In this document: positions 951 through 53,326 of the stretch, piece by piece
Numbering within the stretch: position 1 is the first letter of the stretch
Layout: each line of letters opens with the position of its first letter
Assembly: GCA_025716815.1 (NCBI GenBank)
Contig: JAIXMN010000028.1
Coordinates: 186,001-250,000, forward strand
Reading direction: 5' to 3'
Length of the DNA: 64,000 bases
Source of the DNA: Dichotomocladium elegans
Lineage: Eukaryota; Mucoromycota; Mucoromycetes; Mucorales; Lichtheimiaceae
Translations under genes and position numbers: made by a program
Notes under the pieces: generated by a model
Database searches by the model: none
Seen by the model: only the letters and a program-made list of their open reading frames with translations
What the model was told of the DNA's origin: nothing

Positions 951-3371
951 ATGCTCCATCAGTGGCTTCTCGCCCTCGCCTTGCTCGGCTCTGCCGTTGC
1001 TTTTGAGGTTAGTACCAGCGAAGAGGCCGTCTATTTCCTCTTTTTATGATATGTTCTCCAAAAAGCTCACGTGTGCATTCGTCTATGTAGGATACATGCA
1101 ATAATAACGTGGTGACATGTAACGCATTGCTCACTTTGTCTGCAGAAACCGGTGAGAGATTAACAAGACTCATCCTCCTCGTAATATAGATTGGGGTCAA
1201 AATTCATATGGTGCTGCTCACCCAGCAGATAAGAACATGTGGCAACAACCTTTGCGCCATTATTGTGACGACAACGCGATCGACATGTTCCCAATCTCGT
1301 TCCTGACAACTTTCTTCAGCAAAGGAGGAAAACCTGAGATCAACCTGGCCAATGTATATCATATGCTTTTCCCCTCGAAGCAACACCGTTCTGACATTGC
1401 GCACGTATAGTTTTGCAACTCTGTTGATAACGGTGTATTTCCAGGAACAGCTCTTGCCAATTGTACATCGGTTGTCCAAGATGACATCAAATATTGCCAG
1501 GCACGCGGGAAGGCCATCACCATATCACTCGGAGGTGCGACGGGTGGTGTTGGGTTCAAAACAGAGGACCAAGCTCTTTCGTTCGCAGACACTGTCTGGA
1601 ATGACTTTTTGGGAGGATCCTCTAATACCCGCCCTTTTGGAAATGCTGTTTTGGATGGGTAAGAAAAAAGGCATAAAATCCGGTTTTTTTGTTTTCCATC
1701 GTCTTCTCTTACCTTCACAATACATTTTTTTACAGCATTGATCTCGATATTGAAGGCGGTGGTGCAGCACGTAAGCAAAGAAAAGTAATGGGAACGAGAG
1801 TGAAGACTCAACGATTCATTTTGGCTCGTAGACTATCCTGCATTCCTTCGCAAGCTCCGATCATACTTTGACAAAGCGAATAAGAAGTTCTACATCACTG
1901 CGGCACCTCAGTGCATTTATCCTGATGAAAATCTTCAAGCTACTCTTAACGCGTTTCCTCTCGATGCAGTGTTTGTCCAGTTCTGTGCGTAAAAACAGTT
2001 TCATTTTTTTCCACCATTCAAAATTAATCTGTTGACTAGATAATAATCCCTGCGGCCTCCCATCATATGGCCGAGCGAACCGATGGAACTTTGGACAATG
2101 GGACTATTGGGCGCGGAATATATCGCCTAACAAAAATGTCAAGGTATACATCGGTGCTCCAGCCAGTAGCTCTGCAGCCGGCAGCGGATATGTACCGTTG
2201 GCTACATTGAAAAAAATCGCCCTGGAAACCCGCCAGGCATTTCCTAGCTTTGGTGGTGTTATGTTCTGGGGTAATGGCCTCAAGTTTTGTCCTTTCCATT
2301 GCCAACAACAACGACTTAACACCTTGTTTCAACATAGACACATCACAGGCAGTTGCCAACGGGCGAATGGATTTAGGTATCAAGACAGCTATGGGTAATT
2401 GCCAGCACAAATCGTCTTTTCTTTTTCAACCGTGTTCGGCACCCAGCTGGGACCCATCCGGTCGCCTCTATACAGCGGGTAATCAGGTTTCACACAAGTA
2501 AGCAAAACTCTCTTAAGCTCTGTGCCTTGTCGATATAAATTGTATCTAATTGTCACCTCTGACCCCGTCTCTAAATATAATACAGTGGGTAAGGTTTGAG
2601 ATGGGATCAGCGAAATAGGATGGCAAATCGCCTCTTCCCCTAAGCCTACTAACATTTCGGCCTTAACAATTACAATTTATTCTTTCTATAACTTTCAAGG
2701 TACATATGGGAGGTATGTGGATAATAAACGGCTTCCCGGAAAATTCTTGTAGCCCTCATTCGTTCATGACACGATGGCAGGCGCTATGGTCAGCAAGCAG
2801 CGAACCCACATCAAGCCCCACTAGTGACTGGATGCCAGGTACATGCAGGATATTGCGGTGTAAACCTGTGTATATGTCTTGATCTGCTTTTATATCCTTA
2901 TTAGTGAGTGCCTGCACGAACAACGTGACTGAGATGGTCAGTAGTCCTACAGCCAGCGTTGGCATGGATGTAGATGAGAGCAGCAGTGCATATCACATTG
3001 CTCTTCCCATGGGATCAGGGGTCTGGCCGCCAGTGGCGAGCGCGACGGGAGCCATGGAAGCTACTGTTACCAGGACTGTGATCAGCACAATGAATGAGAC
3101 AGTCATGAGAACCGTATCAGCAGAAACAACAGTCTACAGGACGAAGACTGTTTTTGAGGCTACAACTACCATAACACCGGGTGATGTAGTTCGGCCTTCC
3201 ACCTCGTGCTCTCAGTACCAAAATTGGTCAGCCACAACAACATATGTAGGCGGAACACGTGTTCATTACCAGGGGAAGATCTGGTATGCCAGATGGTGGA
3301 CATATGGAGAAGAACCCAACAGCGGAGCACAGGTTTGGTCTTTAGAAGAGCCTTGTAGTGATGGGCAATAA
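951..3371 (+). CDS. Secreted GH18 (class III) chitinase with two CBM5/12-type chitin-binding modules
   Basis: Predicted endochitinase hydrolysing beta-1,4-GlcNAc polymers, probably exported for wall remodelling. The ATG at 951 opens a signal peptide (MLHQWLLALALLGSAVAF). Exons read by eye: 951-1007, 1091-1118, 1190-1353, 1411-1658, 1736-1770, 1832-1984, 2040-2270, 2337-2497, 2586-2588, 2700-2712, 2781-2838, 2905-3371. The frame gives the class III start VVTYWGQNSYGAAH, the SLGGATGG strand, and the catalytic motif DGIDLDIE (DxxDxDxE, glutamate intact) across the intron at 1659-1735. Late barrel motifs YNNPCG and GGVMFWD follow. A first CBM5/12-like module (APSWDPSG...VSHNGYIWEALW) runs into a Ser/Thr-rich linker. 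A second module (about 3209-3354) has CSQYQNW, YQGKIWYARWWT and VWSLEEPC. The 3-base exon 2586-2588 is inferred because it restores the NG of the first module. Family assignment is firm; some splice sites are less so. Confidence 0.9.
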
Positions 3372-3799: not shown

Positions 3800-5127
3800 A
3801 TGACAGCCTCTACTTCCACTGCGTGGACATGCGCTTTTCTAAAGGACTGGTGGTCAACGAACAAGATCGATAGTATTCGTAAACATGATCAGACAGCTAT
3901 GCACAGACTACTTGATAAATTTATCAGCGACCATCACCATGTTTTTCATATCCAATATCGAGACCAGCCTCATGTCCTTGCGCGTGTTTTAGTAGCACTT
4001 CATGAATTAGGCGGTAAATGAACACCATCGTCGGGGGGTGGGGAATGCTCCATTGAACAGAACATCTCACGTGTTTACCTCAGCCTCTCAGGACGAGCTT
4101 TTCCGAGGCTACTGCAATGCTTTCCCGACTTTAATACCATTTGCGCTGCACAGCGCACAAAATCAGGCATCGATCACAATCGACACATGGCAGTCCCAGC
4201 TCGGCGACGCAAGGTAAGTCTGAGGTGGAGGGTGAATTATGTATCCACCCATTTGTTCATTTGTTCCGCAGCTACTACCAGGCCTACCTCACGTTTTTCA
4301 GCGGCCAAGTTGCGATGTATGGTATCGACGCGGTGGTGGACGCGTTCTTCATCCGCGGGCCACTTTCTGCGTCCATCGGGGGCCGACTACAGCCGTTCGT
4401 GCACCTTACGTTTGGGATCAAATACGCCATGCCACATATTGTTGCTCAGAGTATGGCCTACCTTGCCACCACTCATTTGGACGCGTCCTTTCTTATGCTT
4501 GATGACAGTGACCAGCCCCATCGGATGGGTAGCGGGCTCGATCCAGCCACCGTTCTCCTCGAGCAGATCGCTATCGATCCACGCTTTGCAGGCCGCATGG
4601 CAGCTGCGGATCTGGATGCATACAAGCTCCTTATCAAGAGCCAAGGTGTGCTCCTTCGTACTTACATGCGCCAGTGCATCCATCCGACCCCGGCGGATGA
4701 TCTCATCCGACTCGCGATACGTCTTGTCGGGAACCCCACCATCCGCCTCTCTGTATCAACCCAGCTCCTTGAAGCGGCACGATCCATCGACCTCTGGCCG
4801 ACCGGCATCCGCCCTAAACTTGCCCAGCTCGTACTCCTTGCCATGTTCTGTACGTTTGTCGTCGAGAAGGCATCATCATCAACTTGTTCTTCGGCGGCGG
4901 CGGCCGCCACCACTGGTAGTACTACCAGTCTGAAGAACGCCGTTGCTGTAACATCAAAGCCTACTGTGACGTGGGAACAATGCGCAAAACACATCAAAAC
5001 ACTTGGCAATCCAACCCTCATTCTTCTTTTCCAGAACTTTGTCAAGCTATCAAAAGGAAACGACATTGCTGGTAGTGACCTGCTCAGGTTAATGGATGCG
5101 TTGGTGACGAACAACTCGCTCTTATAA
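3800..5127 (+). CDS. Questin-oxidase-like protein (DUF4243 family)
   Basis: Exons 3800-4013, 4084-4213 and 4272-5127 join in frame to a 399-residue protein. Family hallmarks I recognise are the early H..HVLARVLVALHELGAS segment, a WQSQLGDASYYQAYLTFF block, a central HLTFGIKYAMP/SMAYLATTHLD block, and the C-terminal HIKTLGNPTLILLFQNFVKL with its conserved GN and final helix. Characterised relatives carry out Baeyer-Villiger-type oxidation of an anthraquinone (questin) in secondary metabolism, but the family is broad and the substrate cannot be predicted. A poly-Ala/Ser/Thr linker lies around 4868-4930. There is no signal peptide and no neighbouring biosynthetic cluster, so a secondary-metabolite role is only a possibility. 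Confidence 0.8.
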
Positions 5128-6042: not shown

Positions 6043-8259
6043 TTACAGAACCATATTTTCATCTGCCCAGATCTTGAATGTACGGTCATATCCACATGAT
6101 GCAATGTATCGACCGTCTATGTGAAGAATGGTGTTAGTTGCACCTGTCTTTATCTCTCTCTTTCTCTTTCGTGACTTACCATCCGATAAATCCACACCCA
6201 TCACCTTGCTTTCATGGCCTTCTAGACTCTTGATCAGTCGGAAATCGTCACCTGACCAGATCTTGACACAGCCATCATAGCCGACCGAACTGAGATAGAA
6301 TCCTTCCTCCCTTTCAGGCCCCTTATTGTACTTCACATCCGCCACCAATGATTGATGGGCTGGTATCGTGTATACATTGCGCAATGTCCGCATATCCCAG
6401 ATCTTAACGGTATTATCGGCACTTGCAGACGCAAGCTGGTATCTATTGGACCCACTGTTAAGTCGGATTCATCTCATCTTCTCCGTCTATTACCCATTCG
6501 GAGCCCAGTCCAGACCGAGGATGTCTTTGACATGACCTTCCAGCGCCATAGTAGCTCGACCTGTTCGCGTGTCCCATACACGTCCTACACAGTCTAGACC
6601 ACTTTGCTTATCCGGTAAATATCTGCATTCATCTCATATTCTTGTCGTTTACTCACCCAGAGGCCACGAGACTGCCATCGCCTTGGAACGCCACTGTATA
6701 GACTTCCTTGCTATGGCCTTCCTGGAGGAGCAGTTCTGTAGATGTCTGAACGTCCCAAAGACGCCACGTGCCATCAAAGCCTGCACTGCCAAGAAACCGT
6801 CCAGAGGGATGGAAAGCAATCCGCGATACACGTCGCAAATGGCCCCTCAATGTCGCCAGAGGAGTGTCCCTAAGGATGGTGATGTATAAGCGTCAATATA
6901 TAGCGTAATGTTCGTACAAAGTCCTTACTTGTCAAGGCTCCAGAGATGAATGAGTGTATCTGCACTGCCTGTGGCAAAATTCATGACATTCTTCTCAAGA
7001 GACTTTGTCGCTTCTGGATGAAATGCAATACCGCCAATACGATCTGTGTGGCCCTTGAACGTCAGAAGCGATTCGCATCGTGGGACGGACCACAATCGAC
7101 AAACGCCTGACCAGGCACCAGTCACCAGCATCGATGAGTCAGGAGAAAAGGCGACCTGAGCCACTGGACGTTCGTCTGCGATCTGGGACGCCCAATTTGT
7201 GTAATTCTTGGGCGTGGCGTTGCCTTCCAGTTAGGTACAAAAGACCTAGTTTCTTATTGATAAAGATCACTACCTTAAGTCTAGCATGAACTTCTTTACG
7301 TCCCGCCTTGAGTTGTGGTAACGGTATTTCGGCCTCTGCCTTTTGCTTTTCTATCCGTTTCTTTGCCCTGCAGATACACGGACGCCTTAATGATCCCTCG
7401 TCGCTCTTTTTATGTCTTCACTTTCTCCTACCGTGGTAATGAATACGAAGTAATCCATCGCCGAGCCTCCAATAGCTCCTGTGAACCGGGCGTAAAGAAC
7501 TCCTCTTCTACCTAGAAGAAACAGAACAAATCGAATGAATATTTTCTCTGGAGAAGGTAGTTTGCCGCATAGACTCTATATATACACAGCATACCTCCTC
7601 TTCTTCGCCGGATTCGGATTCGGATGCGGGTGTTCCGGCAGTTTCTGTGGTGCTTTGGAGCGACAGCAAGTATCGCAAACGTTCACGTCGATCTTCAGGC
7701 TATTATAAGGTATTCAGTCTGTCAGTTCATAGCCGCATCACTCATCGGGAAGGAAAGTCTTCATCCATCGCAACTCACGCCTTCGGCAAACAAGCATTGT
7801 GGCTCGCCAAGTTCCCTCAATCGCTGACGAACGCGTGCATCATCGGTGGGCACAGCAAGGTTACGTGCACGTTTCCGCCGTTCGAATTCCTCTAGGATCT
7901 CGCGATCGGCCTGACGTGCACGCAATGCTGGATCAGAAAGATCGGTTGCATCGACTAGGATATTTTTAAGTCCATGTCAGCTTTCGCATCAATAGGTGAA
8001 TGTACCATCAACACATACACAAGCATACAGCATGCACAATAAGTACACATTAACATGCACGCGTATGTGTGCATGTGTGTGTGTCGCCATCTTGATCCTT
8101 ACCTAATGCATCCAAATCGATACCGCCAGCGGCAATCGATGTTGCTGCTGTCGTCGCTGACGGCTCACTGAGTCTGGCGCGTTTGATAATCTCGCTCTGC
8201 TCGAGCGATCCAAAGTGCACACGTGGTTTTGCTTTTAGTTTGCTAGCGTCAGGTTCCAT
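6043..8259 (-). CDS. prp4: U4/U6 snRNP splicing factor Prp4 (PRPF4), SFM domain plus WD40 propeller
   Basis: Spliceosomal protein of the U4/U6 di-snRNP that partners Prp3 and is needed for tri-snRNP assembly in the nucleus. The start chosen is the ATG at 8259 ([20 protein letters not shown]); an in-frame Met at 8361 is less likely. An exon near 7780-7930 carries the diagnostic SFM (splicing factor motif) segment: [20 protein letters not shown] followed by [19 protein letters not shown]. Downstream exons hold WD40 blades, for example FAVS-type repeats ending in RLWSVP, HLWSLDK, RLWDVQT, KIWSGDD and KIWADE. The stop codon is at 6043-6045. Several short introns separate the blades. It is the first of the minus-strand run up to 17.6 kb. 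Not all exon edges were resolved. Confidence 0.9.
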
Positions 8260-17564: not shown

Positions 17565-19712
17565 TGAAGACGCGCGCTGTGGGTTGGTGAAATGGAGAAA
17601 GCTGGGGAACACTAAAAGAAAAAGAGGCGAAATAATTTTATACAGTATCAATCCGATAAACCAAAGCCGGGGCGGACCCTAAAAAAATGGCGGCTCTCAT
17701 TTGCCGAAACTGTCCCCAACCAGAACCCCCTTTTTTTGCCTTTCTTTGGACTTATGGATTATCGTTGATTAATCTCTCCGTGGCCAGACATGCAGAGCGC
17801 ATATTTTTTTCTGCATTCTCTGCGTCTTTAATAACCAATGAAAAAGGGACTCCTGGGGGCTTATCAAGCGGTGTCGTCGATAAAACATCGTTTTGGCGCC
17901 CTTCGGCAACTAACGGAGTAACGGCCAATCAGATACCACACACAAACGCAAATGGACGGCGATCTTTCCGACACCTTCCTGTTTGCTTTTCTTGTCGAAG
18001 CTCAAGAAAAAAGTCCTTATCGGGGGAGGACCAGAAAAAGGTTTTGTGATGACAAAATGTAACCAACTTTTTTATTGACATTCCTTCAATTTTTGCTCGA
18101 ACTAGTTCCCATGAACACCTATCTTGCGTTGTCTAGCGATAAAGACATGGGTGTGAAAATTTGCTTACGATAGGCTTGGTGATTATGTGTCGCCCGTGTC
18201 AGGGTCTCGAACATCCAGCGCTAAAGAAATGGGCGACAGCTCAAAGCCATTTATTTTTTCCCAGCATTAAAGACAGAGTGGGTCGAGACTTTTTTTTTTT
18301 ACACACAATAAATGTCCGGGCCAAGAAAAGGACCCGTTCGAGCTATTTTCGTCACATGACCGTTATCTGTCTAAACCGATCAAGGCGTGCCTTGCTTATC
18401 CAATCTGAAATCGTGTCCCGTGCGCGTTCATTTCCTCTATCTTTCTCTTTTGGAAGATTAAAATAACCATCGACGTGTGTATATAATTACAAAAAGTGTG
18501 GGTGAGACAAACTCCCCCTTGTGCCATATCCTCGCACCGATGACCCTGCAGAAGTTGTACCATCCATCCTTCCCGGTCTAGGGAACCATCATTTTACCCC
18601 AACGTAAATTTCTCGCTTGCCCTGTATTTTTAAACCCGCTTTTCGGACTGTGCGACCTGGGGTTTGAACCTTGTTACGGACACTTCGGACGATTCCGCTG
18701 GTGTGAAATGCTGCTAGATACTAGTTTTGATTTATCGATACTATGACAGGTTTAATAACTGATTTAAACACCTTAGTAACTACCTCCAACAAAAAATGTC
18801 TCTTCTATGATAGAGTCTCCTCTGTGGCCATACCACACATGACAATATCTGTCGGATGATAACGGATATAATTGTTTTCAAGCCTCGCACCATGATGACT
18901 GTGTGTGTATGTGTCTGTGCATGTTTCAATGGACGATTTCCAAGGTTCTGTTTCCCCATTCTCAGGTTGCGGTTTTATTTCTTGTTTGATCTGTAACAAC
19001 AATTTCTGGCGATGGTTCTTTTCTTTCTTGGATAAAAAGCATGGGAAGTTCCTTGAACAAATCATGCGGTTGTTAGTCTCCCACCATCCTCAGTAAAAAG
19101 GAGAGGGAACAATGTAAATTTGACTCGTTCAGCATCTCTAGTTGCGCAAATAAGATAGCTATAAATACCAGAAAGTTAGTAATCCCGCAACCTCAGCCGG
19201 TCCAATTTTAGTCATTTTGGGCGAGAGAATGAAGAGATGGAGTATGCACAGACCAGCAAATTTGCTGCATGAATATTCTTAGAGATACATCTCTTTCCAT
19301 ACATAAAACCCGTTATAATTTCAGTCGCCTTTGCACGCATGCTCTGCATGAGTAACCACGGAAAAAAGAATTGGCGGCAACCTGTCAAAGAACTGTGGTG
19401 GAATCCAAGCGGACGGCAGGTAATAAGATTGTAAATATTTCTGTACTTGCGTACACGTGGACAGATTCAAACGCGTTGAATGCTTCTGTGATTCAGGTGA
19501 GGTCACCTGGTGTCTATCCAGCCACTACTCTTCAACGCCCATTGGGTATGAAAAACCACGCGCGCTTTTTTTTTCTGTGTTTACAGCCTTACATGTTTTG
19601 GGCCAAAGTAAAGTAAAGAAAAAAAAAGGTATAAAGAAAGCCTCGTCGGGTCAATCCTGTCTTTTTTCTTCTTTCTCTATCTGCTTTTACTTGCTAAGTC
19701 CTACTATTCTCA
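17565..19712. other. Long intergenic region between divergent genes
   Basis: Separates the DUF1752 gene (-) from the MYND gene (+). Open frames of up to 120 codons have no recognisable domain. A TATAAA at about 19631 lies roughly 80 bases before the MYND ATG and is its likely core promoter. Confidence 0.4.
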
Positions 19713-25133: not shown

Positions 25134-26047
25134 TTACTGGTCCTTGACCTTCTTGGTACCGCGGAGCAAACCAGTACGTCTGGCAGCAATAAGACCAACC
25201 TTCTGACCGGCTGGAGCGCTGCGGGAGATGGTAGAGGCCTTACCAATGTGCTGATGGTTACCACCACCGTGAGGATGGTCGACGGGGTTCATGGCAACAC
25301 CACGGGTACGGGGCCAGTTGTTGCGCTTGGCCTTGGCCTGATGGTAAGCACGACCAGCCTTCAAGAGGGGCTTGTCAATACGACCGCCACCAGCGACGAT
25401 ACCGACAGCGGCACGGGCGCTGGAGGAAACAATCTTCTTGGCACCGGATGGGAGACGAATACGGGTCTTGCCGTCCTCACCGTGGCCGATGATGGTAGCG
25501 TAGTTACCGGAGGTGCGGGCAATAGCGCCACGGTCACCGGCCTTCTCCTCCACGTTGCAGATAATAGTACCTTCGGGCATGGAGGCAAGGGGGAGAACGT
25601 TACCAATGTTCAAGGTAGCCTTCTTACCGCAGTAAACGAACTGGCCGGTGTACATGCCTTCGGTGGCAATGAAGGTTTCAGTGCGAAGCTTGTACCTTTT
25701 GGAAGAGAGGGGGAAATGATAACATGTGAGTCCATTGTACTACAAAAGATCTTACTATCTCTGGAGATGGGATATTTACTTGTAGGGATCGCGGAACACA
25801 ACCTAGAATAAACACAGCAATCTTAGTAATCTGAATCACTTGAACTAATCAAAAATCTCCAATTTACCTTGGCGAGGGGAGCACCACGTCCGGGGTCGTG
25901 AACAATCTCCTTGACGAGACCGCGAATGTAACCGTGGCGTTCAGCGTAATCGGAAACACGGAATTGAGCGGCACCCTTGCGACCAACGGTGTGAGCCTTG
26001 AAGACGCTTCCGGCACCCTTTCTCTGAGCACGAATGACACGACCCAT
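25134..26047 (-). CDS. rpl2: Cytosolic large-subunit ribosomal protein uL2 (RPL2/RPL8)
   Basis: Core ribosomal protein near the peptidyl transferase centre, needed for subunit association. Exons 25868-26047, 25780-25802 and 25134-25695 join in frame to 254 residues, the expected eukaryotic length. The start [20 protein letters not shown] is canonical, followed by [34 protein letters not shown], and the C-terminal [19 protein letters not shown], which contains the universally conserved histidine loop of uL2. The small 23-base middle exon is worth noting for gene prediction. Codon usage is more biased (C/G-ending) than in the neighbours, as expected for high expression. Confidence 0.97.
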
Positions 26048-41340: not shown

Positions 41341-41348
41341 TATAAATA
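41341..41348 (+). promoter_or_regulatory. TATA box (TATAAATACC) of the 41416 gene
   Basis: TATAAATA followed by CC, 75 bases before the ATG. The same ten-base string precedes the 44641 gene and, in reverse, the 49471 gene. Confidence 0.7.
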
Positions 41349-41415
41349 CCGGCTGGTCTTAACGATCTGAATGTCTTCATACTTTTTCTTCTAAACAGTT
41401 TTATCCAAATCAACC

Positions 41416-41931
41416 ATGCGCTTCTTTACTATTACTTTTGCTGCTGCTCTATGTCTTGGTGCTTTTGTCCAGGCCGCTCCTGGTTCGGTTAAGCGTGGCG
41501 GAGCTACCTCCGGTTCTGATGTCCACGTTGCTAGCACCAACAACGGCAATCCTGGCGGTAGCGACGTGATCGACCAGTCCTACACTCGTGGCTCTTCGCA
41601 AGATGTCCATGAAGCTGGTCAACGCCCTCCGGCTCCCGGCAGTGGTGGCTGCGGTGACTTTGACCGCTGCCCTACTGGTCCCTCCAGTCCTACTGATTGT
41701 GTCGGCATCATCCAATCTCTTCTGCGTGAGCTTTATCCTACGCTCGACTTCACTGCTGAACAGCTCGATATAATCGTCGCCGATGTTCTCCGTCTTCTCG
41801 GTGCTCACGATCTTTCGTATGCTTTCCTACACGGCCGCATTGGTCTTCTCAACGATCTCCTTGCCTTGTTGGGATGCACACTCAGTCAGCTTCTTCTTGC
41901 CATCGAGAGGGTCGTCACTGGCATTATCTAA
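41416..41931 (+). CDS. Secreted four-cysteine-domain family protein, member A
   Basis: Single exon, 171 residues. Signal peptide MRFFTITFAAALCLGAFVQA, then APGSVKRGG with a Kex2-type KR at residues 26-27. The middle is Gly/Ser/Asn-rich. The C-terminal 85 residues are the family domain: GGCGDFDRCPTGPSSPTDCV, then GIIQSLLRELYPTLDFTAEQ, LDIIVADVLRLLG, FLHGRIGLLNDLLALLGCTL and a hydrophobic end (ERVVTGII). Four cysteines (GGC, RCP, TDC, LGC) could form two disulfides. The amphipathic helices suggest a compact helical domain that may bind lipid or self-associate. I know no named family; it could be an effector-like or wall protein. Members B (48881) and C (52478) are nearby. The evidence for a real gene is strong. 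Confidence 0.85.
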   Translation: MRFFTITFAAALCLGAFVQAAPGSVKRGGATSGSDVHVASTNNGNPGGSDVIDQSYTRGSSQDVHEAGQRPPAPGSGGCGDFDRCPTGPSSPTDCVGIIQSLLRELYPTLDFTAEQLDIIVADVLRLLGAHDLSYAFLHGRIGLLNDLLALLGCTLSQLLLAIERVVTGII

Positions 41932-42940
41932 AATATTACAAACGATCATTTTCTCCACCCCCCCGCAGCTATTTCTTTCGGTCCATCCGCCGCTCTTTAT
42001 CTTTTTGTATCAGTCTTTCGCCCTTGGGGGGGATGCATGGCAGCTCTTCAGGTTTAGCCCTGAAGACGAGTATCCCCCGATATCAAATGTGCTCTTAATA
42101 AAATTATGAATGTAATATCCTCGATGAACACCGTAAGAGGTCAATTAAGTTCGCCGACCGTGATCCACCTTACATATCCAAGGACCAGTAGTGATTGTCT
42201 TAAGATACCTCTCTATCTTCCCCTCCTTCCCCTTAAGGGATGGAAGGTTTATGCTCATATGCGAAGCGTGATCAATGAAGCATTGGCTCGCGAATATGTA
42301 CGTGCTCGCCGTTTCAACGGAGTTGACATACCTGTGCTTATGTAGGGCTCCCAAAAAAAAAAGACCCGTGCGCCCGTGAGAATGGATTGCGAAGCATCAC
42401 CGACAAGACACAGTGGGTTCCAGGAAGTTACTTAGTACGCCTCACCAGTCATACATAGCCCAATGTCGGATATAAATGGACTACTACTTTTCGGTATAGA
42501 GAAAAAAGGCCTGATTTTTACATTTCCTTTGGGAGAACAGGCCGTGGGTTGCATTCACCAGGAGTGGAGAGGGGAGGGGGGGAGTTTGGAGGTCAAGGAC
42601 AGTGCGATGTACACTTGTTGGACTGCCTTACAAGGAGCAGTAAAAAAATTCTGGCGCTCTCCAATTCCCCCCCCCAAGAACTGTCACTAAAGCGCTCACG
42701 GAAGCTCACATACGCATTTTACTAAGGAAACTATCTATTTCTTGTGTCTCAAAAAGGGCGAAATAGCGATGGCAGCAAGCCTCGGACAATGGCTCGCATG
42801 TATGCCGGAAAAAGGGGACCCAAGGTGTGGCCAGGAGGAGAGGGGGGAAAGAGGGGAGAAGCGCGCGCCTGTGTGACTTGAATTCAAACACCCCCTTTCC
42901 TTCCAGAGAATTGGCCCTGTCGGTCTGTTCCGAAAAGAAA
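41932..42940. other. Intergenic
   Basis: 3' flank of secreted member A and promoter side of the coiled-coil gene at 42941. I see no gene or clear repeat here. Confidence 0.4.
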
Positions 42941-44516
42941 ATGTCGCTCGATAACGCCATTCAGCACGTCCTCGATCAGTCGAAAAACACAGCCTCTGTT
43001 AGGCTTCGAAAGGGATCTACAGCTGTACTCGACCAACTATATGAGATTAAAGCCAGCCAGGAGCTGACAAGGGATGCTGATGCGGACGAGTGCAAGCTGT
43101 TCCATGTGAGCAACAATGAATATGCAGCAGCAAGGCAAGGCCCTCTCCTCTCTCTCTCTCTCTCCCTCCTGTCATATTCACACACAAACACAGAGAGACA
43201 GACAGACAGACACACATATATTCTTTCCCTTTTACATTAAGTATATAGTCAACTCATAAGGTGAACAGGGTCCATGACGAAGCCTTGCGAGGAACGCCTT
43301 CTCAATCGCCTTACCGCAATATCGAGCGGCTACTGCCGGCCCTGTCGGCGTTGAACCAGATTTGGTAGTTTTACTGCGAATAAGGAATGGATGTAGGGAT
43401 GATGTCCTAACGTTTTCTCTTTCAAAAGCCCCATACCAGACCTAGCTGAAGAAATCGAGCAACTGCAAGAAGAATATAGTTCCAAAGAAACTAACATCCA
43501 GTTTCTGAAAACAAGCTTTGATGAAGTATGAAGCGTTTTACTGGGCAAAAAAATGCGCGGGCATGCGTTGCGCGTTGACGAAGCATATCGAATGCTAAGC
43601 TGATGATCCAAACGGTGCAATGTAGCAAAGAGTTGATTTGGACCATCTGTTACGTGCATCCAATGCAAGACATACGAAGCATCGGCGTGTAGTAAGTGAA
43701 ATGCGCGAGTGGAATCAAGAGAAGGAAAGGGGGAGGAGGTGAAGAGCGACAGGGTGAACCTTAATTGAGTTATGCTCAGGAACCCAGCCGCCAAATGATT
43801 CAACAGCGAGAACAGGTAACTGCACGGAGATGTTGGCAGATCAAGCGCTGGGCACCAATTGCTGACTGGGTCAGGAGCTGCAAATGCTGGAAAGTAAAAT
43901 CACAAAGAGGAAGCAGGACTTGCAGGATTATGGTATGACGAATCGTCTTCAAGGGACAATTGCAGGCTGATCATCAAGAATATTTCTCTTTCTCCCTATC
44001 TCTTTTCTTTTCTCTCTTTATTCTTTTATAGACCAACGGATACGTGAACTCGAAAGGGATATAAAAAAGCAAAAGAGAAAAACACCGGACGAAAGCTCAG
44101 AGAGTGATGTGCCGGTCTCACAATACAATATGCAAGATATCCTGAGTAACCCCTCAAGCGGCACGGATACCTATGCTACCAAATTCAGGTAGGAAAGAAT
44201 TTGTCCTTCATGTTTAGGCATTTTTCCTAACTTAAAAATTAGTACCATACGTCGCGAGTTCGTAAGGTTGACATTGTCAGACGAAGAACGGGCCAGCCCA
44301 GAGAAGAAGGTGATGGCCAAAGTGATTGAAGAGCTGGAAGACCAGCCGGATCATCGGATGTCATTTTCGGATTTGAAAAGGCCTGTCACTGAGTTTGCGG
44401 TGTCGCTTGGACTGGATGAAGGTACTGGAGCCCATGTAATCTATAGGCTCAGCATCTTTAATATAGTCAAACTCGATCGGAGCGATCCTCTCAAGCCTTA
44501 CGTGCAGCTAGCATAA
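42941..44516 (+). CDS. Coiled-coil protein of unknown function, multi-exon
   Basis: The start at 42941 gives MSLDNAIQHVLDQSKNTASV. Further exons carry SQSPYRNIERLLPALSALNQ (about 43275-43362), PDLAEEIEQLQEEYSSKETN (about 43431-43520), short exons to about 43930 rich in Gln/Glu/Lys, and DQRIRELERDIKKQKRK (about 44032). The C-terminus from about 44242 reads STIRREFVRLTLSDEE and then a small, probably winged-helix-like domain (VIEELEDQPDHRMSFSDLKR ... IYRLSIFNIVKLDRSDP), ending in PYVQLA and the stop at 44514-44516. Overall: coiled coil plus small C-terminal domain, as in kinetochore or spindle-pole proteins, but I cannot name a family. A (CT)n tract lies in the first intron (43145-43170). Confidence 0.6.
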
Positions 44517-44586
44517 AGTTTCTTTGGATGTATACAGAGATATTAGGGAGTTGATGTAGGGAGGAAATGTTACCTTTGAATTGGGT

Positions 44587-44594
44587 TATAAATA
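44587..44594 (+). promoter_or_regulatory. TATA box (TATAAATACC) of the 44641 gene
   Basis: TATAAATA followed by CC, 54 bases before the ATG. The preceding coiled-coil gene stops only about 70 bases earlier, so this promoter is very compact. Confidence 0.65.
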
Positions 44595-44640
44595 CCAGGC
44601 TTCCCGAAGGCCACTGGCACCCATCACTATCATCATCATC

Positions 44641-44853
44641 ATGCGAACCGTCGTCACTGTCATCTTCACTTTGTTATTCCTCTATACTCTGCCTGCCCAG
44701 GCTATTCCGATGGTCAAGCGAGATGGACCGCCACCAGGCCCACCACCATCTGATGTTAAATTAAACGTTGGTACTGCCGCGGTTCAGTCCACAATGGGAT
44801 CTGTTCAGGGAGTCCGCGTCGGAGGTCCACCACCGGAGGGCGGCGACGAGTAG
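44641..44853 (+). CDS. Small secreted Pro/Gly-rich peptide precursor
   Basis: Single exon, 70 residues. Signal peptide MRTVVTVIFTLLFLYTLPAQ, then AIPMVKR with a dibasic Kex2-type site at residues 26-27. The released part is DGPPPGPPPSDVKLN..., ending VRVGGPPPEGGDE, with two Pro-rich blocks flanking a short polar centre. There are no cysteines. The signal peptide plus KR layout and shared TATA string link it to the neighbouring secreted family, but it lacks the four-cysteine domain. A peptide-hormone-like or wall-associated role is speculation. Confidence 0.7.
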   Translation: MRTVVTVIFTLLFLYTLPAQAIPMVKRDGPPPGPPPSDVKLNVGTAAVQSTMGSVQGVRVGGPPPEGGDE

Positions 44854-45568
44854 CGTTTACGATTCATTCTTCATATCATACATATCCATTACCCACCATC
44901 TTGTATCACTTGAACAACTTCTCTGGTCTCTGAATTATCGTTTTTATTTGCTATAAACCGGGGGCGGGGACTGTACCCAAAGAACGTTTCACCCATCATT
45001 TTTCCTCTAGAACATTTGTGTCCATCCGTAGGTGTAACTTGGTTTGGTACCAGAGTGGAGTTGAATGTCCGTGGCATACAGTCATATATGCCGCCGTGGT
45101 GGATAGGGGTTGGGGCGGATGTGTACAAAGCGACGGAACATTGTTGAACGGCAGTGCGGAGCAGCTCATCGTCTTTGGTGGGAGGGACGGCGGGCGGGTG
45201 GGTGGGCAAAGCGGGCGGCTATGGCCGGGTGTCCCTGGAGCGGTTCCGTATGTACAACAAAAGAAGGGCCAGAAGTACCACACACCGTATTCAACCCAGC
45301 TCGCTTACACAAACCCACGCACGCACACGCACAAAAAACCGATTCTTTTTCTGTCGCTCAGCCCTGGCATGACAAAGCAAGAAAAACCCGCGGATAGAAG
45401 GACGGGGGTGAGTGTTGAGTCAAGGTGGTGAAGTAATGAGAGGCCATGTATTTGTTTCCTTAACAAAGATGCACACTTCATTCACCAGACCTATACAAAA
45501 AAGTCACGTTGTACATGCTACCTTCGCAGCCGTTTGTACAGCCGTTGAGTTTCATTCGCGCGCGCTAT

Positions 45569-45610
<42 letters not shown>

Positions 45611-45651
45611 TCCCTGCACCCACCCCTTTTATTTTTCTTTTCAAATCGACA
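44854..45651. other. Intergenic, with (TC)n tract before ypt6
   Basis: 3' flank of the 44641 gene and ypt6 promoter. A (TC)n repeat at about 45571-45600 sits in the ypt6 5' leader. Apparent open frames around 45018-45430 have low-complexity translations. Confidence 0.4.
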
Positions 45652-46846
<1,195 letters not shown>

Positions 46847-47130
46847 AAAGGCATTGGCTCATTTTTTATATTTGTTCCTCTTTACAGACCATTAGCTCTT
46901 CTTTTCTCTCTTTCTCTTTCTCTTTTAATCTACTTATATTTACACATACTCGTTTTTGGAAACCCTCGCTCCCCTCCCTGCACTTAAAATAAACTTTGTG
47001 AGATGTTATACCCTCTTCTTTAAGAAAGCAAAGGGGGTCATGAATAGAGAGGACCCTCGTTCATAATTTAAAGCGTCGGACTTCACGGGAATAAAACACT
47101 TCCCTTTTTTGCTGAAACAATTTACACTTA
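46847..47130. other. Short spacer between ypt6 and the SurE-family gene
   Basis: Pyrimidine-rich 3' UTR of ypt6 followed by the promoter of the next + strand gene. No other feature seen. Confidence 0.4.
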
Positions 47131-48595
47131 ATGTCGGATAGACCATTGCGAGTTTTGATCACCAATGATGACGGTGAGCCTTTTAGAGCTCGAAAGGGTG
47201 GACCTGGCCACATTCTGAACGCGGTGTTTTCGAAACAGGACCTCCGTGCAAGGACGAGTCGCCGTTCATTCTGCCATTCATTGAGCACCTGGAGAGCCTG
47301 GGTTGGGATGTCAAGTATGGAAGCGCAGCGCCCTCTGATTATGCTGTTTGTGTATACATACGAGCCGCCCTATTTTTAAACCATTCCTTCTCTGACTAGG
47401 GTTGTTTTACCCGACTGCCAAAAGTCGTGGATCTCCAAGTCGTTCATGATCAAGGACCATATCGAGCTAAGCTACTACCACAGGGACACGGGACATACGG
47501 GCTACCACCGCCGTTCTGACCGCGATTTCGTCTTGGTAAGTGGCAAACGCATACTATATATGCATATAGAGAGGACTAATTTTTCTAGCTGAGTGGCACC
47601 CCAGCTACATGTATCAATATTGCCTTGTATCATATTTACAAACACATCGACTTTGACCTGGTCCTCGCCGGGCCCAACTTTGGCCGTAACTCTGCAAAGT
47701 AAGTCTTCCACATGCCGTGTGCAGTATAATAAATAACGAACGATCGGATGAACGGATGGTGTGCTTTTTTTTCGACTTGAAAAGCATATACACTTTGTCG
47801 TCAGGCACCGTTGGGGCTGCATTGTAAGTGGTGGAACTACAATGGAAAAAAGGGCAAGACGACTGATGCACGCACACACAAAGAGAGTCGACGATGTGCG
47901 AAAAGAAATCAATTGCGCTCTCGTTTGCCTTTTATTCCAGAGACTTTAGCAGGGACAAGATACAATGCGCGAGTGTCATGGGTAAGCAAGCCTACTACGA
48001 TCTTCACTACTATTATTATTATTTTTTATCTAACTGCACAAAGCAACGAATGTCATTCAACATTTATACGAGCGGGACAAGTGGCCAAAGAACGGCTTGT
48101 TCAACGTCAACGTGCCTCTTGTGAACGAACTGCGTCCTGTACGTCTCACGCGGTTCCACAAGACCCACTACGGCAGTCTCTTCAGGCCGCTTGTCGACGT
48201 ATCTCTCGAGGCGGCGGACAAGGCAGTAGCAACAGCAGCAACAGCAGCAAAGCAGGATGCTTCGGGCGAGATGGCGGAGCAGAACATGCGCCAATTTGCC
48301 GAGGGACATGAGTCTGCGCGAACCGTGTTCCATTTCGCACCGGATATAGCGTCCATGAGCCATCCCACCGATCCCGCGGAAGATTCAGACGCCTGGGCTT
48401 TGAATCATCGCTACGTATCTGGTAAGGAATTCGGACTACTACCTCTCTCTGTCTCTGTTTCCTCCAACCTCGGATGTTGTTAACTCATGCTCTGATGCTC
48501 GCTGATATCAAGTGACGCCGATGACAGCAGCTTATCAGGTTGGCGATATGACGGTAGACTATGGCTTAGACCGTCTGCATACGGCTAAGATTTGA
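47131..48595 (+). CDS. SurE-family 5'/3'-nucleotidase / acid phosphatase
   Basis: Metal-dependent nucleoside monophosphatase family. The start at 47131 gives MSDRPLRVLITNDDG, the hallmark SurE NDDG metal site. A 60-70-base intron then joins to GPPCKDESPFILPFIEHLES. Next come KVVLPDCQKSWISKSFMIKD, VLLSGTPATCINIALYH, DFDLVLAGPNFGRNSA (the conserved GPNxG site), an exon with YTLSSGTVGAALEG and SLSFAFYSRDF, WPKNGLFNVNVPL, and the C-terminal ALNHRYVSVTPMTAAYQ, ending in a TGA at 48593-48595. An Ala/Lys-rich insertion lies around 48210-48280. Fungal relatives are cytosolic; a second domain such as the tubulin-tyrosine-ligase module of yeast Pby1 is absent. Confidence 0.9.
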
Positions 48596-48880
48596 AATGC
48601 AGTGTTCGTCAGATGACGACATCTTCGTCGTACCTGCGTTCTGCACTCTCTCCCCCTCCCCCCACTTCCGACCCACGTTGATCACGTGCACTTCCAAAGA
48701 CAACCACTCATTTTTTTTGCGATTAAGAAAAGGAATGAAATACGCCGACACTTATTATTTTTATAACTGTATCCTGACAAAGTTAGGATGTATATCGAAG
48801 GGGATTACAACGAGACAAGAAAGAAAAAGGGCGGGAGGCTAGCAAAAAGAGGTATATAGATAAGCGAAAGATTATACTCT
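48596..48880. other. Convergent intergenic spacer
   Basis: Lies between the SurE gene (+) and secreted member B (-). No gene seen. Confidence 0.4.
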
Positions 48881-49471
48881 TTAGTGGGCGATGCCGGAGA
48901 CGACCTGCTCGATAGTAAAGACGAGCTGGTCGATGGTGCAACCCAGGGTGGCAAGGAGGTCATTGAGGAGACCGATGCGGCCGTGAAGGAAGGCGTAGGA
49001 GAGATCGTCAGCGCCGAGGATGCGGAGGACTTGGGCGACGATGATATCCAGCTCGTGTGCGGTAAAGTCGAGGGTGGGGTAGAGCTCGCGCAGAAGCGAC
49101 TGGAGAATGCCGATGCAGTCCGTAGGATCGCTGGGGCCGACAGGGCAGTCGCCGCGGGAAGAGCAGCCGCCCTCATGGGGAGGAAGAGGAGGCGATGGAG
49201 GGTGGTGGGGGCGGGGAGCATTGCAAGAGCCGTCGTGATCCGAGCAGCCGCCGCTGCCAACGCCATCGAGAAGACCACGCTTGCCAGGCGCACCGACCTT
49301 GGCAGGGAGTCCGGCCAACGCCGCAGTGACAGCACTGAGAGGATTGCCGCTACCGAGGCCGGCGGGTCCACTCGACGCAGCGCCACGTTGAGCACCGTCT
49401 GAAGGAGGAACAGGCGTGGCAAGGACACCAGCAACAAGGCACAGGGCAACGGAGATGATAGAGAAGCGCAT
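48881..49471 (-). CDS. Secreted four-cysteine-domain family protein, member B
   Basis: Single exon, 196 residues. Signal peptide MRFSIISVALCLVAGVLA, then TPVPPSDGAQRG. A KR site (PGKRGLLDGVGSGG) at about residues 68-69 would release a C-terminal mature protein; the GLL after KR is shared with member C (KRGLLGGGL). The middle is Ala/Gly-rich then His/Pro-rich (PRPHHPPSPPLPPHEGG). C-terminal domain: GGCSSRGDCPVGPSDPTDCI, then GILQSLLRELYPTLDFTAHE, LDIIVAQVLRILGADDLSYA and FLHGRIGLLNDLLATLGCTI, ending QVVSGIAH. It keeps all four domain cysteines and has two extra (GGCSDHDGSC). Function unknown; extracellular location is expected. Confidence 0.85.
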   Translation of the reverse strand: MRFSIISVALCLVAGVLATPVPPSDGAQRGAASSGPAGLGSGNPLSAVTAALAGLPAKVGAPGKRGLLDGVGSGGCSDHDGSCNAPRPHHPPSPPLPPHEGGCSSRGDCPVGPSDPTDCIGILQSLLRELYPTLDFTAHELDIIVAQVLRILGADDLSYAFLHGRIGLLNDLLATLGCTIDQLVFTIEQVVSGIAH

Positions 49472-49561
49472 ATTAAAGAAAAATGGATAAAGGACTTTTT
49501 TTTTTGGTGTGTATGTGGCGGTTGTGAGTGAGGATGGATCCACTCTTCCATTCCCCCCGGG

Positions 49562-49569
49562 TATTTATA
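49562..49569 (-). promoter_or_regulatory. TATA box (TATAAATACC) of the 49471 gene
   Basis: Reading the minus strand, TATAAATACCC lies about 91 bases before the ATG at 49471. This ten-base TATA string matches those of the 41416 and 44641 genes. Confidence 0.65.
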
Positions 49570-52477
49570 TTATATCGTTTTCGCTCGTATACAACCTCCC
49601 TATGCATCCAATATTCAAGTTAGCTCCTGAGCACACGAGGTTTCCATGGTAGATAACGCTTGGCTACATCTGCAGCCAGCTCTACTTGCTTCATTCAAGG
49701 GAGTTAAGGGTGCGCGCATTTCGCATCTTTCTTCTTCCCTCCCTCCCCCCTTTCCGTCCACACACATCTCTCCCCCCTCAAGGTTCTGTCTTCGATCATT
49801 ATTTTCCATGGATGTCTGGTCTTGCTGTTGCTCATGATGTTGATGGCTGCTCCGAAACAAATGAGCTTTTTTGCATCCATGATACGTAGGCACACACACA
49901 CGTATATCACACAGTTGCGCGTGCGCGAGTGCGAGCGTAACGCTTCATCTTGAACACACACGCACACGCGTTGCACTAGTTGCAGCTGCTTTCATTGACA
50001 CTGCTGGTGGGGGCGATGTATGTATGCATCATGCACCTGAGAGATCCTCTTTCTGTAATACACACGGGTTGAAGAAACACCTCAACTTTCATGAGATTTC
50101 TCCTTATTCTTTAAAGTATTCTATGCCCGCACAAGGACCAGCAGATGTAGTAGAAGAAGAAGAAGAAGAAGAAAAACCGCTCAAAAAGAAGGAGAAGTCG
50201 ATCGCTGCGCTTCGAACCAGTCAATTCGCGAAAAACTCGTACTTGAATGACATGCCACACTATCTAAACGATTGTACCCGGGATTTTCAAAAGAGGATTT
50301 CACCCCCTCCCCCCTTGCGTACATTTGCTACGGCCAAGTCTATAGCAGCGTTGCTTACACACACGCACACACAGAAAGATAAGCGTGATGGTAAGGCCAG
50401 GTTCCCGCTTGATTTCCTTCATGCTTATCGACATCGTTTTATCCCTTTCCATCAACCGAATGGCTCCCCATCCCCGCTACCTCTCTCTGTAAACTCTCCT
50501 CTTCACCCACCCACTGGAAAAGAAAGAAAAACCAGCAGCAGGCGAACACAACATGAATATATATATATATATATATAGTCGTGTGTGTGTGCACGCTCTC
50601 TTCTGTGCCCAATGTCCCCTCGTGATAGTATGCAGACGCTCTGAAAGCTGTCCAAGAAAAATGGAGACACCTGTTTTCTGTGGATCGTGTTTTTATCACT
50701 GATAATATATAATCATATTGTCTGTGTTTGCACACATTCTCTATCTCTATCTCTTTTACACTATATACATTTTGGAGGGGGAAAGAGAGAGAGAGAGAGA
50801 GAAACTATATCAGCATGTGGCGAGAAAATTTGTCATGTATGAGCAATGATGGTTTGTTTATTTCTCTCTATCTCGGTGTCCCCTTGTCCTTTCCAAAAAA
50901 AAAATGGAGCATGTCAATGAGACACCATTGGGTTCAGGAGCAAAAGAAGTAACAGGAGTGAATGAAGTGGTTTTTTTGGGGGGGGGCGGGTATGAAGTGG
51001 GTTTAGAGAGAAAGGGGGTGGGGATGAGTGAGAGGAAACCTAAGAATTTCTTTTCGAAACATCCGCTTCTTTGAGAGCAACCTGCTTCAGTAACCCCGTT
51101 TCCATCACAAGGCAATGTTGTTGAATGCATCGAGCAAGCAAGCTGCTGTTGAAAGAAGTTGTTAACTAGGGAGAAGAGAGACAGAGAGCATTTTCGGAAT
51201 TTGGACCGAAGTTCAGAAAAAAAAAGGAGACATTGGAGTGGTAGGATGTGCGCGCGCGGCTGATGTGAGGCCCCGGGGGGGAGAGGAGGGATGGACGAAG
51301 TGAAGTAAGGGGCAAAGGAAATCGTGTAGAGTTTCTGCGCATAGCTTCTTATCTTTGCAGACAAAAGTAACAGCAAACAGCGTGGATGTGCCTTACAAAA
51401 AAGGAGGACTCAGAGCAAGGAGGGAGGGAGGGCAGTAACGTATTTCTCGTGGATGTGTAATACAAGAAACACGTTTCCAATGTAACTGTTCTGTACTAGT
51501 GGGGCCTCGGATCATTGATTTTAACGCACTGTATTAAAACCATTTCTAATGTGCGGGATGGTTTCTGGGCTGTCGCTAATCTTCAGCAACAATGTCTCCA
51601 TCTTTTCTTGGGATGACTGCCTTGGACTCCGTGCATCGCTTTCACCTTTTTTTTTTCCTCTCTTTCTTCCTGTCTGCATGTGGAAAAGGGAACGCTTCTC
51701 CCCCCTCCCCCGAGGAGCGTGCGCATGTGTGTATATCCATGTCGCAATCGCTTTCACTCTCTCTTGTGAAGGGGAAAGACGTCATAGGTATTTAAACTAG
51801 GAAACCAATGGACTAGGCTAAGAACCTGCATTCAATGGCCATGCTAAACTTCCTGATCTCATCCAAATGGAGTATTCTTTCTAATGCTCCCTTAGTCCCC
51901 CGATTGCTGATGATTCTCGTATATTATGCTCCATTGTCCTGTAGTACAGCTAATAAAGATTGTAAAATAAAACGAGTGTCATCTACAGAAAATATAATGT
52001 CGTCAATTCACGTGTTGTTAAATGGCTAATATACATTATAGATGAGTTGCTCCTCGAACGCTATTAATACGAGTCTAATAAAAGTCTGTTTTAATGAAGC
52101 AATGCAAAAGAAAGGAGAGAGGACGACATCAGCAGCATCCCCGGTTTCTACTCTATGCGATTCGTGAGCCATGCAGCGGAAGAAGAGGACCAGGATGTGT
52201 GTTTGTTACTTTGATGTTATAACACGAAAGAATGTTGGTGTTCATAGTGTTATAAGTCACAGAATATTACGATAATTTATTTTAATCGCTCTTGGAAATA
52301 AAGAAGATGGCTATGTAATGGGGTATCAATTGCATTACAGCGAGGAAACAAAGCGAGCTGGGATGAATATGTAAAGAAAAAAAAAAAAGTAAAATGAAAG
52401 GCGTGGTTGGGTAATAGTTGGATGATGTTGATGACAGTCGCTTCTTTTTTTTTTTGGTTCGTCCCGTTCTTTTGCTT
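49570..52477. other. Long intergenic region with simple repeats
   Basis: Many simple repeats: AC-rich tracts (49890-49980, 50355-50375), an AT run (50560-50577), GA (50785-50803) and G/A-rich stretches (51240-51300). The + strand frame at about 50126-50400 (MPAQGPADVVEEEEEEEKPL) is low complexity and not convincing as a gene. Confidence 0.4.
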
Positions 52478-53251
52478 CTAGTTGTCAACCAAGCCGTCAA
52501 CCACCTGCTCGAGGACCATGACGAGCTGCTGGATCGTGCAGCCGAGCAGACGGAGCAGATCGTTCAACAGGCCAATGCGTCCGTGAAGGATGCTCTCTCC
52601 GAGAGAGTCGAGGCCGAGGAGATCAAGAACATTAGCAACGATGATATCCAGCTCGTGGGCGGTGAAGTCCAGCGTGGGGTAGAGCTCGCGGAGAAGGGAC
52701 TGGATAATGCCAATGCAGTCGGTTGGCTCGGTCGGGCCAGTAGGGCAGCCGTGGCTCGGGCAGCCGCCATGGGGAGGGTACTCGGGATGGCTGGGATGCT
52801 CGGGATGGCTGGGGTGCTCGGGATGGCTGGGGTGCTCGGGATGGCTGGGGTGCTCGGGATGGCTGGGGTGCTCGGGGTGTTCGGGTTGCTCGGGGTACTC
52901 AGGATGCTCGGGGTGCTCAGGATGCTCGGGGAACTCGGGTTCCTCAGGATACTCGGGATGGCCGGGCACATTGTCGCAGTTCTCAGGGCAGTTGGACTGG
53001 ATGAGACCACCTCCGAGGAGACCTCGCTTGATGGCTGCGCCGCCAACTGGAAGTGCTTTGGCGGACGTGGCGAGGTTAGCAACGGGGAGCTGCTGGGTGA
53101 GAGGATTGGTGCCAGCGAGGGAGGCAAGGCCGCCGGAGCCCGCACCCTGCTGGCTAGGGGATGCACCTGTAGCATCGGCTTCTGGTTGGACGGGAATAGC
53201 CTGAACGCTGGCAATGAGGCAGATGGCAAGCGAAATAGCGGTGAAGCGCAT
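52478..53251 (-). CDS. Secreted four-cysteine-domain family protein, member C, with His-Pro repeat tract
   Basis: Single exon, 257 residues. Signal peptide MRFTAISLAICLIASVQA, then IPVQPEADATG. A KR at about residues 75-76 (AIKRGLLGGGL) suggests Kex2 cleavage. The central region is a tandem array first of E-H-P and E-Y-P triplets, then of the hexad HPSHPE. This comes from an 18-base DNA repeat at about 52780-52872. The domain follows: GGCPSHGCPTGPTEPTDCIG, then IIQSLLRELYPTLDFTAHEL, DIIVANVLDLLGLDSLGESI and LHGRIGLLNDLLRLLGCTIQ, ending VVDGLVDN. Four domain cysteines are conserved (spacing one residue shorter between the first two). The His/Pro/Glu tract could bind divalent metal; that is inference. 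Confidence 0.87.
   Translation of the reverse strand: MRFTAISLAICLIASVQAIPVQPEADATGASPSQQGAGSGGLASLAGTNPLTQQLPVANLATSAKALPVGGAAIKRGLLGGGLIQSNCPENCDNVPGHPEYPEEPEFPEHPEHPEHPEYPEQPEHPEHPSHPEHPSHPEHPSHPEHPSHPEHPSHPEYPPHGGCPSHGCPTGPTEPTDCIGIIQSLLRELYPTLDFTAHELDIIVANVLDLLGLDSLGESILHGRIGLLNDLLRLLGCTIQQLVMVLEQVVDGLVDN
52780..52872 (-). repeat. 18-base coding minisatellite (HPSHPE unit) in secreted member C
   Basis: About five near-perfect copies of an 18-base unit (CGGGATGGCTGGGGTGCT on the + strand), flanked by degenerate 9-base half-units up to about 52960. In frame, so copy-number changes would vary protein length without breaking the reading frame. Confidence 0.85.
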
Positions 53252-53326
53252 GTTGTCAAATGGAGTGTTGGCTGCTGTTGTTATTTACTGATAAAGAATA
53301 TCTCTTGATCCATTCGTCTCGTTGCC

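Follow-up and report, generated by a model that had tools for sequence, protein, structure and literature searches.

An apparently undescribed four-cysteine domain shared by three putatively secreted, KR-containing paralogues of Dichotomocladium elegans

Three neighbouring genes of Dichotomocladium elegans, here designated P1, P2 and P3, are old paralogues kept by purifying selection on a common C-terminal domain with four fixed cysteines. Judged from their sequences, they make up a real and apparently undescribed family of secreted-type proteins, seemingly restricted to one lineage and built around an orphan domain. All three genes are intronless, run in a single frame from ATG to stop and lie inside 12 kb of the window, by which we mean the whole 64-kb stretch of DNA analysed (Table 1). 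The explanation that we put first, if only tentatively, is that the genes encode extracellular proteins restricted to one lineage and matured by Kex2, and that their constant domain assembles, or docks, at the wall or the aerial surface. The initial annotation had seen in this cluster a candidate for an undescribed “system”, which is too strong a word for a small paralogous gene family with no partner gene recognised nearby.

Table 1. Features of the three genes, in window coordinates
Feature	Position	Strand	Description
TATA-like TATAAATACC	41341..41350	+	starts 75 bases upstream of P1 ATG
P1	41416..41931	+	171 aa; signal-peptide-like start, KR at residues 26-27, Gly/Ser linker, C-terminal domain
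P1 C-terminal four-cysteine domain	41644..41928	+	four fixed cysteines
P2	48881..49471	-	196 aa; KR at 64-65, extra Cys pair, His/Pro linker, C-terminal domain
P2 C-terminal four-cysteine domain	48884..49171	-	four fixed cysteines
TATA-like TATAAATACC	49560..49569	-	starts 98 bases upstream of P2 ATG
P3	52478..53251	-	257 aa; KR at 75-76, extra Cys pair, HPE/HPSHPE repeats, C-terminal domain
P3 C-terminal four-cysteine domain	52481..52768	-	four fixed cysteines
P3 linker-coding tandem repeat (HPE/HPSHPE)	52776..52960	-	period 18, also 27 and 54

The three genes and their common domain

The common domain is 95-96 residues long, with a pairwise identity of 69-76%, and follows the pattern C-x4/5-C-P-x-G-P-x2-P-T-D-C with the fourth cysteine at GCT; even for the looser C-x4-6-C-P-x-G-P-x2-P-T-D-C, a scan of the 64-kb window in six frames yields exactly three occurrences. 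That three proteins share such a domain, as first noticed, is thus borne out. When the 458 segments that run from stop to stop over 60 residues or more were compared all against all by BLASTP (E <= 1e-5, with masking of low complexity), P1, P2 and P3 with their antisense shadows emerged as the sole related set in the window, bar one weak pair at 6656-7230, and P1 matches P2 over the full length (E = 1.5e-51). For P2 the ATG at 49471 is the likely start, as against the GTG of the mechanical ORF of 220 aa.

The differences between paralogues are concentrated at the third codon position (24/12/44, 30/15/55 and 23/14/43 at positions 1/2/3 in the three domain pairs), which shows that the frame is coding. 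By the Nei-Gojobori method dN and dS are 0.20 and 1.14 for P1-P2, 0.28 and 2.22 for P1-P3, a dS that is near saturation and imprecise, and 0.24 and 0.83 for P2-P3, giving dN/dS ratios of 0.12-0.29. In shared codon boxes only 23/45, 10/41 and 20/42 of the fourfold sites are in agreement, and these three measures together identify old duplicates under purifying selection, neither recent copies nor the outcome of recent gene conversion across the domain. The earlier description of the domain as conserved can be upheld only among the three paralogues, since no relative was found in another organism.

The three-sequence alignment of the domain has 97 columns, of which 61 are invariant, 45 of them among the 61 columns from 19 to 79; unbroken identical runs of 15 residues (columns 24-38) and 12 residues (62-73) include R, E, D, H and N. 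Of the 24 mostly polar columns 12 are invariant, against 49 of the remaining 73. The domain contains no lysine, has a net charge of -6 to -10 and is hydrophobic after PTDC (GRAVY 0.78-0.99, compared with -0.88 to -1.80 for the linkers).

AlphaFold2, given the alignment of the three sequences, placed four helices in the domain of full-length P1 (pLDDT 46) and five helices with no strands in the isolated P2 domain (pLDDT 58, pTM 0.45). The domain thus probably consists of four or five helices, which agrees, at low confidence, with the helical character first proposed for it; the models are too poor for a fold assignment or for showing a hydrophobic patch, and Foldseek and VIA-align searches with these low-confidence models gave nothing above noise. 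With helix limits set by hand, amphipathic character is clear for helix D (shuffle fractions 0.001-0.003), marginal for helices A and B (0.039-0.096) and absent from helix C, which is evenly hydrophobic. An internal duplication of helices A+B as C+D, an idea formed by eye and weakly tested, gave shuffle fractions of 0.001 to 0.087 over nine pairings (0.087, 0.003 and 0.008 within the same protein) and only 4% probability in a profile comparison, and we do not claim it.

Upstream of the domain the three proteins diverge. Each begins with MRF and a hydrophobic stretch that reads by eye as a signal peptide, its cut being placed likewise, and each contains exactly one dibasic site (KR, RR, KK and RK counted), so that the MRF-type start and the KR attributed to each protein are both present. 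The KR of P1 begins about 5 residues past the likely signal-peptide cut, leaving almost no pro-region, compared with pro-regions of about 45 and 56 residues, Gly/Ala/Pro/Ser-rich by eye, in P2 and P3. Residues 1-70 of P2 and 1-81 of P3 align with 43% identity over 82 columns (E 5e-12 in one direction and 5e-10 in the other), the similarity running through the pro-region, past the KR and into KR-GLL. The linkers proper cannot be aligned: that of P1 is Gly/Ser, that of P2 His/Pro, and that of P3 is encoded by a tandem repeat with a period of 18 bases. The first reading, that the middle regions do not align, consequently holds for the linkers, which do appear to be fast-changing, and not for P2 and P3 from the pro-region to beyond the KR.

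We infer secretion of P1-P3 from these signal-peptide-like starts. Cleavage at the KR by a Kex2-type protease is plausible too, because the D. elegans genome encodes the proprotein-convertase P-domain (P_proprotein, four matches on three contigs). P2 and P3 carry an extra cysteine pair before the linker (GCSDHDGSC and NCPENC, respectively) that P1 lacks, and the mature chains would hold 4, 6 and 6 cysteines, even numbers that suggest disulfides in the domain.

Fourfold codons ending in A number 5/105 in P1, 5/131 in P2 and 11/142 in P3, close to the 2/100 of the uL2 exon, against 215/879 in eight other window ORFs (Fisher p = 4e-7, 1e-9 and 2e-6, respectively); these eight were hand-chosen among the longer ORFs, are not all verified exons, and include three that were tried against Pfam, none of which rose over the cut-off. 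The ORF at 4141, outside this set, has an A3 fraction of 0.16, compared with 0.07, 0.04 and 0.07 in P1, P2 and P3. Such a ribosomal-protein-like codon choice hints at high expression. The TATA-like TATAAATACC occurs four times in the window where 0.16 would be expected, before P1, P2 and the ORF at 44641 and once more at 19160, with no obvious start close by; P3 is without it and has instead the TATA-like TATAAAAGG about 83 bases upstream. The motif was chosen post hoc and the three 600-base upstream regions have no 8-mer in common, so that we make no claim of common regulation.

Relatives and genomic surroundings

A search of the D. elegans genome (39.4 Mb, 122 contigs) with P2 and with the P3 domain recovered the three loci each time and, among the best candidates, which are all that this search scores, no other credible copy; a fourth match of P2 on contig C57 (E = 0.35, 34% over 59 residues) was judged chance. 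Against 5.8 billion proteins P2 found nothing among 1989 candidates besides P2 and P1 themselves, and a profile of the three sequences at E <= 10 again found P2 and P1 alone among the best 7994 scored. This absence is soft, because P3 was not returned either: though within the length limits, it is missing from the results, and so one in three known members escaped. The lack of relatives elsewhere may reflect gene calling. An open frame of 296 aa lies antisense over P3 (window 52418-53308, +), perhaps a by-product of the codon bias and repeats of that gene, and may be the reason why P3 is missing from the results. The initial annotation had itself raised the prospect of there being no homologues in related genomes, and this doubt is touched by the result: none was found, but unannotated relatives could escape a protein search. 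As a control, uL2, a far easier query, returned named Mucorales proteins from the same database, with Fennellomyces sp. T-0311 (91%), Rhizopus microsporus (85%) and Parasitella parasitica (83%) among the named clusters in the best 120 of 7883. The sole locus from a scan of viral contigs matches over 21 residues at 62%, in a short frame between stops antisense to an ORF of 188 aa, and the sole locus from bacterial and archaeal genomes over ten residues, close to the beginning of an ORF of 178 aa that shows no further likeness; we regard both as chance.

Neither Pfam nor NCBIfam recognises the domain. In Pfam at E <= 10, where the HMMER filters drop most matches above about 0.1, P2 and P3 have no match and P1 gives DIM (PF08194) alone, scoring 12.5 bits where the cut-off is 20.8 (E 0.17) and covering residues 1-25, that is, the signal peptide only. 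NCBIfam has no match inside the four-cysteine domain, the four matches of P3 (E 1e-7 to 1.9) lying in the repeat region and far under their cut-offs. PDB sequences contain no significant match to the domain (best E 2.3), and PDB profile matches to COP9 subunit 2, at E 2.3 and 2.5, were dropped. Among the titles and abstract starts listed by keyword searches of open-licence papers, none points to such a domain. The statement that the domain belongs to no named family is accordingly upheld for Pfam and NCBIfam. Fungal secretomes contain many small, lineage-restricted cysteine proteins without an assigned function. Orphan small secreted proteins are in this sense a known kind, and the isolation of the domain is interesting but rests on incomplete databases.

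Several other features of the genome may be recorded here. Between P1 and P2, at 44641-44850 (+), lies a 70-aa ORF with a signal-peptide-like start, a KR, a Pro/Gly-rich end and TATAAATACC upstream; it has no Pfam match, no four-cysteine domain and one weak paralogue (33%, E 0.001) starting with MRF at 1486-1698 (+) of locus L013 on contig C30. Adjoining this paralogue, at 2226-2834 (+) of the same locus, is a candidate for another secreted, processed protein: an ORF of 202 aa whose start resembles a signal peptide and which contains a His/Gln stretch and several dibasic sites. Ten neighbouring or window ORFs compared with Pfam yielded two Ras matches above the cut-off, one to kinase families and one to a thioesterase below it; the remaining six, the 44641 ORF included, had nothing at E <= 0.1. 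The ORF at window 2904-3371 (+) ends in YQNWSATTTYVGGTRVHYQGKIWYARWWTYGEEP, which by eye we take to resemble a chitin-binding CBM5/12 module. CotH gives nine matches in the genome, all over the cut-off; CotH families are usual in Mucorales. The uL2 exon (window 25134-25655, -) has four genome copies that are 100% identical in protein (contigs C44, C50, C52 and C112) and one at 42% (C90), the identical copies pointing to large-scale duplication or recent copying.

A possible role at the surface and its rivals

Under the explanation that we tentatively prefer, the signal peptide would export each protein and a Kex2-type protease would cut at the single KR. The mature chain would then join a flexible, polar, non-conserved spacer to a compact helical domain that is hydrophobic, acidic and free of lysine and that disulfides probably close. 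This constant domain would self-assemble or dock on a common partner, either in the wall or at the surface of hyphae, sporangia or aerial parts, whereas the Gly/Ser or His/Pro/Glu segment, which varies, would be an exposed spacer that can change freely. That stretches of 15 and 12 residues, charged ones included, have stayed identical at a dS of 0.83-2.2 suggests a specific interface and not hydrophobicity alone, an argument weakened by the lower invariance of mostly polar columns. The likely abundance of the proteins, taken with a Pro/His- or Gly/Ser-rich spacer, suggests a structural protein of the wall or surface. Strong conservation of the domain would fit a ligand or receptor equally well, and no wall-binding or adhesin family in Pfam matches P1-P3.

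It is somewhat unlikely, in our estimate, that P1-P3 are instead small cysteine proteins of an effector or antimicrobial type, activated by Kex2 and directed against competitors or a host. Paralogues that lie in a cluster, change fast in their linkers and are found in one genome only, as here, are typical of effector-like genes, but the domain is strongly conserved, and its acidity contrasts with the mostly cationic nature of antimicrobial proteins. In their layout of pro-region, KR and mature domain P2 and P3 fit published proteins with a Kex2 pro-domain (PMC8528282), while P1 has almost no pro-region and the ribosomal-protein-like codon bias suggests constitutive abundance.

An unlikely role is that of a carrier of a hydrophobic ligand such as a sterol, fatty acid or apocarotenoid, in which a small, disulfide-closed helical bundle would enclose a lipid cavity. 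Elicitins and lipid-transfer proteins have a comparable layout, and the helices without strands in the low-confidence models, the one clearly and two marginally amphipathic helices beside an evenly hydrophobic one, and the invariant polar residues would all suit such a cavity. The fixed cysteines number only four, however, no Pfam family is matched besides DIM in the P1 signal peptide, and the low-confidence model found no fold match.

That the KR-released pro-peptide is the product, acting as a signal, with the C-terminal domain a mere folding or sorting module, we consider very unlikely: Kex2-processed secreted peptides are frequent in Mucoromycota (PMC6339444, PMC7329392) and a relationship between the P2 and P3 pro-regions can be recognised, but the strongest constraint falls on the C-terminal domain, P1 has hardly any pro-peptide, and each protein has one KR, with no repeated peptide between KR sites. 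An artefact of chance ORFs or repeat-driven similarity, to which the low-complexity HPE repeats of P3 and the long antisense ORFs overlapping P2 and P3 might lend some colour, is extremely improbable in the face of the codon-position pattern, a dN/dS well below 1 and conservation beyond the repeats.

Comparison with known systems

Among processed proteins the K2PPs invite comparison. Kex2 removes a pro-domain from them, and their N-terminal pro-region, which promotes disorder, is followed by a KR within the first half of the chain (PMC8528282). P2 and P3 resemble them by layout, with a signal-peptide-like start, an apparent pro-region, one KR in the first half and a cysteine-containing putative mature domain; the class was, however, defined for plant-pathogen effectors and by processing instead of sequence (same source), so that P1-P3 are compared with it by layout alone, and P1 is almost without a pro-region. 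KEPs, which are common in Mucoromycota, consist of repeated peptides separated by Kex2 sites (PMC6339444, PMC7329392). P1-P3 resemble them in their secreted type and KR site, and P3 in having repeats, but its repeat contains no KR, and with exactly one dibasic site each the three proteins are not KEPs. Ustilago Rep1 is secreted and cut by Kex2 into many short peptides that form fibrils (PMC8528282). It is like P1-P3 in the Kex2 maturation, secretion and surface role that we propose for them, and differs in that they have one putative cut site and a folded-looking domain.

Among surface proteins, hydrophobins have eight cysteines in the order C-CC-C-C-CC-C; HFS proteins also have eight-cysteine patterns, and cerato-platanins have four cysteines (PMC8596622). 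All are small secreted cysteine proteins, as P1-P3 appear to be, with a surface role that is possible for P1-P3 as well. By their cysteine pattern, however, P1-P3 are not hydrophobins: the mature chains have 4, 6 and 6 cysteines, no CC pair and no Pfam hydrophobin match at E <= 10. The likeness to cerato-platanins is limited to the count of four cysteines, with no Pfam cerato-platanin match. Hydrophobins and cerato-platanins have beta folds, in contrast to the helices predicted for the domain of P1-P3. A genome search with PF01185 gave zero matches, but its control was equally silent and the result is uninformative. Elicitins and lipid-transfer proteins find no Pfam match either; here helices are predicted, the models being of low confidence and the fold search uninformative.

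Hydrophobins had been described in Dikarya only, before candidates were reported in a chytrid and one in Mortierella (PMC6784888), and PMC12239770 cites a paper whose title speaks of Mucorales spores without rodlet hydrophobins. What coats the surfaces of Mucorales in their place is on these grounds a fair question. A bolder version of our explanation, which we regard as unlikely, would have an undescribed secreted domain, born or surviving in one Mucorales lineage, form a protein layer over its wall or aerial structures in place of the hydrophobins that these fungi mostly lack, with interchangeable spacers tuning the surface. With three paralogues, a sharply conserved domain, free linkers, a hint of high expression from codon bias and a simple gene layout, the family makes the constant part directly testable.
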